The notes under the pieces were generated by a model. The model was not told where the DNA came from. It saw only the letters and a program-made list of their open reading frames with translations, and did not search any database. Shown here one piece after another: positions 49,378-51,190 of a stretch of 64,000 nt of DNA. Origin of the DNA: Candidatus Saccharimonadota bacterium (GTDB taxonomy: Bacteria > Patescibacteriota > Saccharimonadia > Saccharimonadales > Saccharimonadaceae). The position numbers and the translations under genes are program-made. Location: positions 1-64,000 of the forward strand of contig JAKSSX010000002.1 of assembly GCA_024402895.1 (NCBI GenBank), written 5' to 3'. Each line of letters starts with the position of its first letter. Position 1 is the stretch's first letter.

Positions 49378-49404
49378 AAAAGAGCCAGTCGAAACGACTG
49401 GCTC
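49378..49404 (-). terminator. Terminator of the 49422 gene
   Basis: GAGCCAGTCG pairs perfectly with CGACTGGCTC around AAA; the T run is on the minus-strand side. Confidence 0.88.
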
Positions 49405-49421: not shown

Positions 49422-50132
49422 TTAAATAGCTTTCACTTTAATTGGAGTAACCTTACCGTTACTTCCGTCAACTATTTCAGCATACTGTTTTCTTGCCTTC
49501 TTCATTGCGCGCTCCTTACGGAGTTCTTTTCTAATTTCGCCAACTGCCCATGCTAAGCGTCTAGCGATGAAAACGGCGTGTGGCTTCTCGATAATAACAG
49601 GCTTCTTTTTGTGAACGAAGAAATACTCTCTATAGAGTTTTACGGCACGCTTATACTGAGCGCACTCACGAACAATATAGTAGCCACCTGCTGCACCGAG
49701 CGCCATGAAGAATACGACAATTGAGGCCATTATATCACCCCAAGCCGCACCGTCCGTAGGTGCAAGTACATTAATAAATGCCTGAACCATGCCGAACCAA
49801 TGCTCGGCGCAGAAAACGCCGGCGAATATGATACCAGCAATAATCGACTGGAAGATATCAGCTGTCACGCTAGGCATGACAATTGTAGAATCCGACATCT
49901 CTCTGCGGAGGTTTAATTTAAGTACATGCTTAAACTCCTCCTTAACTACCTTCACTTTTGTTGAAACAAAGCGAGGCTCTCCTTTCTGGTATTCATAGTT
50001 ACTTACTCGTCTCGGACGAACTTTTACAGACTTGATGCCTGTAAAAATTGCTACTGCGATAAGTGCAATAACTGTAAGAAGAACTGTTACTGAACCAGTT
50101 GGAACAAAACTATGGTAATACTCAAATGCCAT
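49422..50132 (-). CDS. Membrane protein of unknown function under a structured leader
   Basis: A 236-residue protein. Hydrophobic segments lie at about 12-33, 94-115 and 130-152, separated by a basic cytoplasmic-looking region, with a highly basic C-terminal 75 residues. No family recognised. The start at 50132 is fixed by AGGAGGT at 50139-50145. A longer frame to 50189 would run through the leader hairpins. Expression appears to be controlled by the long leader described separately. Confidence 0.78.
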   Translation of the reverse strand: MAFEYYHSFVPTGSVTVLLTVIALIAVAIFTGIKSVKVRPRRVSNYEYQKGEPRFVSTKVKVVKEEFKHVLKLNLRREMSDSTIVMPSVTADIFQSIIAGIIFAGVFCAEHWFGMVQAFINVLAPTDGAAWGDIMASIVVFFMALGAAGGYYIVRECAQYKRAVKLYREYFFVHKKKPVIIEKPHAVFIARRLAWAVGEIRKELRKERAMKKARKQYAEIVDGSNGKVTPIKVKAI

Positions 50133-50310
50133 GCGAATACCTCCTAAAAATAAATTTTGCGTCTCTAGACGCGGTGCTTTTATTCGCATTTCATAGTACT
50201 TCTCGGAGAAATGCTACGGAATGCGAATAAAAACATGGAGGTTTTTGTCGCTATTTAAGATATGATTTCTCGTAAGGATCGATGATGCTTGTATATATTA
50301 TACGCATCAT
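50133..50310 (-). promoter_or_regulatory. Structured 5' leader with mutually exclusive helices (candidate translational switch)
   Basis: About 178 nt of untranslated leader. A first hairpin pairs ATGATGC with GCATCAT (50282-50309 region). A second has 13-bp arms, 50220-50232 with 50178-50190. A third is GCGTC/GACGC (50159-50172). The 3' arm of the second hairpin can alternatively pair nine bases with TATTCGCAT at 50131-50139, which runs from the last base of the Shine-Dalgarno site into the AUG. ACCTCC (50237-50242) is complementary to the Shine-Dalgarno GGAGGT (50139-50144). Confidence 0.75.
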
Positions 50311-50316
50311 GCCTTC

Positions 50317-50345
50317 ATTATAGCACACTTTATTCAAAAAGTCAA
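50317..50345 (-). promoter_or_regulatory. Sigma-70-type promoter of the leader and 49422 gene
   Basis: Minus strand TTGACT (complement 50340-50345), 17-bp spacer ending in TGC, TATAAT (complement 50317-50322). Confidence 0.85.
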
Positions 50346-50401
50346 GTACGCTTACGCTTATTTTCCTGACAGTCAAGTGAACTACATCTATATATTTTCG
50401 C

Positions 50402-50433
50402 ACAAAAAATGCCCCCGTAAAGAGGCATTTTTA
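50402..50433 (-). terminator. Terminator after pheST-FKBP
   Basis: AAAAATGCC pairs with GGCATTTTT around a loop of about ten bases; T run on the minus-strand side. Confidence 0.86.
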
Positions 50434-50439
50434 TTATTT

Positions 50440-51168
50440 TTATTGCTGGCGAAATGAGTAGCCGTAGAGTTCGTTTGCTAGTTGCTCGAGTTCGTCGGAA
50501 ACTTCAAGAGCTTCTGGCTTTTCGATCATCATAACAATAAACTTAAGTGGCGAGTTTGCAGGAATTGTTCCCTGTGCAGTATCGCCATAACCAAGAACAG
50601 CTGGAATAGTAATCTCACGAATACCACCAATACGCATGCCCTCGATACCTTCGAGCCAACCCTGAATCATGCTCGAAGAACCGGTTAGTGGGCTCTTGAG
50701 CTCTGCTGGATTTTCAGTGCTATCAAATGAAGAATCGAAGATTGTTTCATCGGAAAGCCAACCGATATAGTATGCTGCGTAATCAGTGTCCCAAGCCTCA
50801 GACTTGCCATTCTCGTCAATATTGGACTTAATTTCGCGACCAGTACCGACAACGATATCCTTCGTAGTGAGCGTATTTACGCCAGCTGCGTTGAAGGCCT
50901 TAACGTCAGTGCGGCGAGCCTTAAAAGTATCAAAATACTTCTTAGAAAGCTCTCTTGCCTGAGCGTCTTCGCGATTCTGATAGTCAGCATAAAGCTCATT
51001 AAAACGATTAGTTTTCTCAGTCGAAATAGTCTGCTGATTTTCAGTGTTTTTGTAGCCCAAAACAATACCGGCATAAAGCGCAAAAGTACTTCCGAGCAAA
51101 ACAATCGCAATCAAAGCAACAATGATGCGCTGCTTTGGCGTGGTTTTTCTGTCATTATTAACAATCAT
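50440..51168 (-). CDS. Membrane-anchored FKBP-type peptidyl-prolyl isomerase
   Basis: A 242-residue protein with a basic N-terminus and one anchor helix (about 15-36), then a polar spacer and a C-terminal FKBP domain (about 110-225). The domain shows YYIGWLSDETIFDSSFD, GWLEGIEGMRIGGIREITIP and GYGDTAQGTIPANSPLKFIV, the classic FKBP core. It lies outside the membrane and would help fold secreted proteins. The ATG at 51168 is chosen because GGAGGT precedes it by three bases; an upstream GTG at 51186 lacks such a site. It follows pheT by about 22 bp. Confidence 0.92.
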   Translation of the reverse strand: MIVNNDRKTTPKQRIIVALIAIVLLGSTFALYAGIVLGYKNTENQQTISTEKTNRFNELYADYQNREDAQARELSKKYFDTFKARRTDVKAFNAAGVNTLTTKDIVVGTGREIKSNIDENGKSEAWDTDYAAYYIGWLSDETIFDSSFDSTENPAELKSPLTGSSSMIQGWLEGIEGMRIGGIREITIPAVLGYGDTAQGTIPANSPLKFIVMMIEKPEALEVSDELEQLANELYGYSFRQQ

Positions 51169-51190
51169 ATTACCTCCGTTATCCACCCAA

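Follow-up and report, generated by a model that had tools for sequence, protein, structure and literature searches.

A candidate portable translation-control leader in one family of Saccharibacteria

The window, the whole stretch of 64,000 nucleotides that was analysed, carries on its minus strand a gene for a membrane protein (P0001), preceded by a promoter and a structured leader of about 178 nt. The features of the locus, from the promoter to the 3' end of the transcript, are as follows.

50317..50359, minus strand: promoter, with AAGCGTAAGC as upstream element, TTGACT (-35) and TG + TATAAT (-10); the signature recurs before homologous leaders
50282..50310, minus strand: HP1, hairpin at the transcript 5' end (MFE fold and folds of relatives)
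50274..50280, minus strand: GATCCTT, counterpart in the window of the GYACNUU stretch conserved behind HP1 (alignments)
50237..50242, minus strand: anti-SD, ACCUCC (DNA ACCTCC; MFE and own-versus-swapped pairing test)
50176..50234, minus strand: HP2, long hairpin with core GCAUU[C]..[A]AAUGC and C50219 opposite A50191 (covariation)
50181..50189, minus strand: complement of the start region 50131-50139 within the HP2 3' arm (lineage-specific and energetically unfavourable)
50159..50172, minus strand: HP3, small hairpin between HP2 and the SD (fold; only some relatives have it)
50139..50145, minus strand: Shine-Dalgarno (SD) AGGAGGT, predicted to be sequestered in the ground state (fold)
49422..50132, minus strand: P0001, the presumably leader-controlled gene, encoding a basic membrane protein of 236 aa, family not assigned
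49382..49404, minus strand: terminator-like hairpin 3' of P0001

The start codon of P0001 is the ATG at 50130-50132 (minus strand), and the terminator-like hairpin after the gene is consistent with a single-gene transcript. P0001 matched no family in Pfam or NCBIfam, and its AlphaFold2 model, made of long helices and confident (pLDDT 88.5), matched no fold in the PDB. Relatives of P0001 were detectable by protein homology in 13 of 45 genomes of the genus. In most genomes the P0001-type gene was flanked by genes for an FKBP-type isomerase (49-75% identical to that of the window) and for exonuclease I (ExoI; 70-88%), and aligned products at this locus had only 17-40% identity to P0001. P0001 is a fast-evolving membrane protein. 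Positions 49422-51186 of the window and the orthologous loci hold a hypervariable membrane-protein gene at a fixed site between conserved FKBP and ExoI genes, and the promoter and leader of P0001-type genes were conserved better than the coding sequence.

The promoter, TTGACT-17-TATAAT with TG before the -10, matched the consensus at 11 of 12 positions, and a signature AAGC-TAAGC/TTGAC/TGTGNTATAAT precedes the homologous leaders. On the minus strand, the HP2 arm TTTTATTCGCATT (50220-50232) has its exact complement in AATGCGAATAAAA (50178-50190), and the repeat TATTCGCAT occurs at 50221-50229 and again at 50131-50139, the latter copy ending inside the ATG. The MFE of the whole leader was -59.2 kcal/mol (z = -6.2; 0 of 200 shuffles as low), and HP2 alone was also more stable than its shuffles (z = -8.1). 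In the MFE of the window HP2 is formed while ACCTCC pairs with the SD, so that HP2 is present and the SD closed in the predicted ground state. Most of the 38 leaders compared had a hairpin close to the 5' end (z = -2.0 on average). The elements of the initial annotation, namely the strong promoter, the 13-bp hairpin, the repeat, ACCTCC, SD and ATG, two further hairpins (here HP1 and HP3) and a leader of about 178 nt, were all present on the minus strand at the coordinates given there.

A promoter signature AAGCATAAGC-N3/4-TTGAC-N18-TATAAT was present in 1-6 copies in most genomes of the genus (e.g. G000:C1:118976-119018), with zero matches for a reversed control of the AAGCATAAGC-type pattern; by sequence reading, the AAGCATAAGC-type signature also stands before other genes, one of them RelA/SpoT-like. 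Enrichment of an HP1-GYAC module at other promoters of its own genome was not supported (8 matches vs 7 in the control). A 19-codon ATG frame, MMRIIYTSIIDPYEKSYLK, occupies minus-strand positions 50251-50310 of the window and begins in HP1, almost at the transcript 5' end. As a conserved upstream ORF it was rejected on sequence reading, many relatives having no ATG at that place.

A direct DNA search of relatives found no homologous leader; leaders were reached via protein homology, and a recognisably homologous one was present in 12 of the 13 genomes with P0001 relatives. Homologous leaders share the order of promoter signature, first hairpin, GYACNUU-like stretch, SD-complementary segment, HP2, SD and start. 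With a covariance model (R1) the leader was found in 29 of the 45 genus genomes; a second model (R2), built from 39 matches, found it in 35 of the 45, with up to four matches per genome. Across the family, R2 had matches in 50 of 295 genomes, which belong to 8 of the 61 genera (the genus and seven others); in an order-wide sample searched with R1, matches were confined to the family of the window. Leader matches were nearly always followed by an SD and an ORF. An Rfam search, proposed in the initial annotation, matched no family: at the gathering score of Rfam 15 the window yielded only a tRNA, and a permissive search (E up to 10) returned nothing relevant to the leader. A literature search, of incomplete coverage, did not turn up a leader of this kind described from Saccharibacteria.

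The site after the FKBP gene was also read in genomes without an R1 match at that place. Five genomes (G008, G033, G018, G029 and G003) had a diverged leader at the same locus, and four (G068, G023, G064 and G014) had a short leader in which the first hairpin was present and HP2 absent; in others the membrane-protein gene was absent after FKBP. Four genomes (leaders L103, L105, L110 and L111) thus keep a membrane-protein gene after FKBP behind a short leader without HP2, which indicates that gain or loss of the control element is possible.

Additional copies of the leader precede unrelated genes, for example one for a nucleoside 2-deoxyribosyltransferase-like protein. Two leaders (L130 and L131) were 95% identical over 196 bases with unrelated products, and two leaders within one genome (G027) were 88% identical ahead of unrelated genes. 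Near-identical leaders before unrelated genes make the leader a portable module, and suggest that the promoter-leader cassette has been copied. L130, L131, L139, L143, L129 and L074 form a group of near-identical leaders with unrelated genes in two genera, two of them in G027. Taken with its distribution, the leader looks like a new, portable translation-control element, absent from Rfam and restricted to one family.

Covariation in HP2 was complete, with 19 of 19 modelled pairs changing on both sides among 39 aligned matches. Cells of HP2 were paired in 94.6% of cases vs 70.7% in shuffles (0 of 500 shuffles reached the observed value) in an alignment fitted to the modelled structure and thus biased in its favour, and the covariation signal was lost when columns were slid by one. 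An alignment of 12 leaders made with MAFFT only gave the same HP2 helix, with 14 of 19 pairs compensated. Wobble cells in HP2 comprised 97 G·U vs 17 A·C on the transcribed strand, a bias that an RNA of this strand would show and a DNA palindrome would not; one plus-strand match (L009), a reverse-strand match to the palindrome, was left out of these counts and retained among the 39 rows of the covariation test and in R2. Part of the HP2 core sequence was fixed (GCAUU[C]../..[A]AAUGC); at its mismatch position 22 of 38 leaders had C·A and 13 had U-A. Comparison of the leaders shows that HP2 exists as an RNA structure.

To compare SD pairing between leaders, the 24 nt at the base of HP2 on its 5' side were paired either with the 20 nt that precede the start codon of the same leader or with the corresponding 20 nt of other leaders. 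Among 36 leaders the own pairing was stronger than the swapped one (-11.3 vs -8.5 kcal/mol; z = -7.3; 0 of 20,000 permutations), as it was among 19 later leaders that had not been used in forming the idea (z = -4.9) and among all 53 (z = -9.2), with related leaders inside these sets, so that the permutation numbers are not exact probabilities. By sequence reading, the complementarity tracks divergent SD surroundings, as with AUUCCUCCA/UGGAGGAAU in L075 and AUAUUCUCUC/GGGAGGAUAU in L068. The SD was paired with the 30 nt before HP2 in most of 38 MFEs, and its opening was predicted to cost about 9 kcal/mol. Predicted SD accessibility was 0.25 vs 0.36 for 21 SD-bearing ORFs of the window, a set that includes P0001 itself (p = 0.03); accessibility as such is only a modest discriminator because folding programs pair many SDs. 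By comparison of leaders, the SD is shown to pair with the segment 5' of HP2, and the advantage of the own SD over those of others makes SD sequestration beside HP2 a conserved feature. Helix covariation in homologues and association with a gene start, the marks of a conserved structured cis-regulatory leader, were thus both found. The check for covariation in relatives, proposed in the initial annotation, upheld its structured leader with an SD paired by ACCTCC beside the hairpin: both parts covary, HP2 at every modelled pair and the SD with its own partner.

The leader is probably a portable, family-restricted, cis-acting RNA that holds translation off until the SD is freed by a factor, perhaps one that works on HP2. 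Transcription from the strong promoter would yield, in order, HP1, the GYACNUU-like stretch, the anti-SD segment and directly thereafter HP2; the emerging SD would then pair with the anti-SD beside HP2, leaving an mRNA that is made and, by default, presumably not translated. An event at the conserved HP2 core, either cleavage by RNase III or binding of a protein, may open the SD. Judging from its shape, a cut by RNase III in HP2 would separate anti-SD from SD; an HP2-binding protein is equally possible as the releasing factor. Between the anti-SD and the SD lies a duplex of about 20 bp or more, and of the 45 genomes of the genus 40 carry an RNase III gene, the genome of the window among them. 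Against this explanation stand the four genomes whose leader at this locus is short and has no HP2, and an SD accessibility only modestly below that of the 21 SD-bearing ORFs of the window.

HP1 and HP2 could instead mainly stabilise the mRNA, with SD pairing only tuning down a potentially harmful membrane protein and no switch involved. Hairpins at the 5' end can protect mRNA, and a strong promoter combined with a closed SD would fit such a role, which is possible but rather doubtful: conservation of the HP2 core sequence exceeds the need of base pairing, and the same leader also stands ahead of soluble proteins. A classical riboswitch, with a small molecule bound to the GYACNUU stretch or the HP2 core and an SD helix that opens or closes in response, is unlikely. 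The conserved core letters with their C-A mismatch, the conserved stretch after HP1 and an SD sequestration that could serve as expression platform speak for it; against it, HP2 is a nearly perfect duplex with a variable loop and no multi-helix pocket, and the genes behind the leaders are unrelated to one another, most of them without a known family. The riboswitch-like architecture initially proposed found neither an Rfam match nor an association with metabolic genes.

The initial annotation had also proposed that the 3' arm of HP2 can give up the 5' arm and pair with the start-codon region instead. The exact 9-base repeat and its complementarity to the start region hold in the window, and an equivalent repeat in other letters was found in G012 and G034 (UAUCUGUAU and GUCUGCG), with arm-to-start energies of -13.1 (window), -12.0 (G012) and -11.2 kcal/mol (G034). 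As a general mechanism, however, mutually exclusive pairing is very unlikely. The repeat was not kept in G030, G007, G010 and most others, and most homologous leaders drop it yet keep the gene, the outcome that the initial annotation had itself named as refuting; own-versus-swapped pairing of arm and start was marginal among 36 leaders (z = -1.7, p about 0.05) and driven by the window, G012 and G034. When forced, the alternative fold of the window was 17 kcal/mol worse (-44.1 vs -61.4 kcal/mol), and HP2 is transcribed before the start region. With strong pairing in few leaders and this cost, the arm switch would be at most lineage-specific, kept in different letters in the window and two relatives.

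An RNA thermometer, with heat melting the short helix that closes the SD, is highly improbable, and the thermosensor-like claim was not borne out: the predicted unpaired probability of the SD was essentially constant at 10-50 °C in ten leaders, and no known thermometer family was matched. Equally improbable is HP2 as a DNA-level inverted repeat, either a regulator site or the recombination site of a mobile cassette, which would fit a portable leader ahead of unrelated genes and a hypervariable gene at a fixed locus but not the excess of G·U over A·C on the transcribed strand, a pairing with the SD region that extends beyond the SD core, or the fixed position of HP2 between promoter and SD.

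The control of differentiation in Patescibacteria is unknown, with translation regulation likely to be key, and the switching of epibiotic Saccharibacteria between host-attached and free states is not understood, with translation control likewise proposed as key (review, PMC11665869). Tentatively, the leader might define a post-transcriptional regulon specific to Saccharibacteria, with one portable promoter-leader cassette and one trans-acting factor that recognises HP2, in which mRNAs of fast-evolving membrane and soluble proteins would not be translated before a cue arrives, for instance host contact. Comparative support for this concrete RNA element is strong; the leader occurs at up to four sites in a genome and is amenable to reporters and probing without growing the organism.

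In Escherichia coli adhE, a leader processed by RNase III frees a sequestered SD. The present leader resembles it in having a long leader duplex and an SD closed by an upstream segment, such that a cut in the hairpin would part the strands; unlike adhE, the element is common to unrelated genes in one Saccharibacteria family, and its cleavage in HP2 is putative. With anti-SD translational riboswitches as a general class it shares an SD paired in one state and the same output logic, whereas it has no aptamer-like pocket, metabolic gene association or Rfam match. RNA thermometers (FourU, ROSE and others) likewise hold the SD paired in the leader, but here no melting is predicted at 10-50 °C and the SD pairing adjoins a very stable hairpin.
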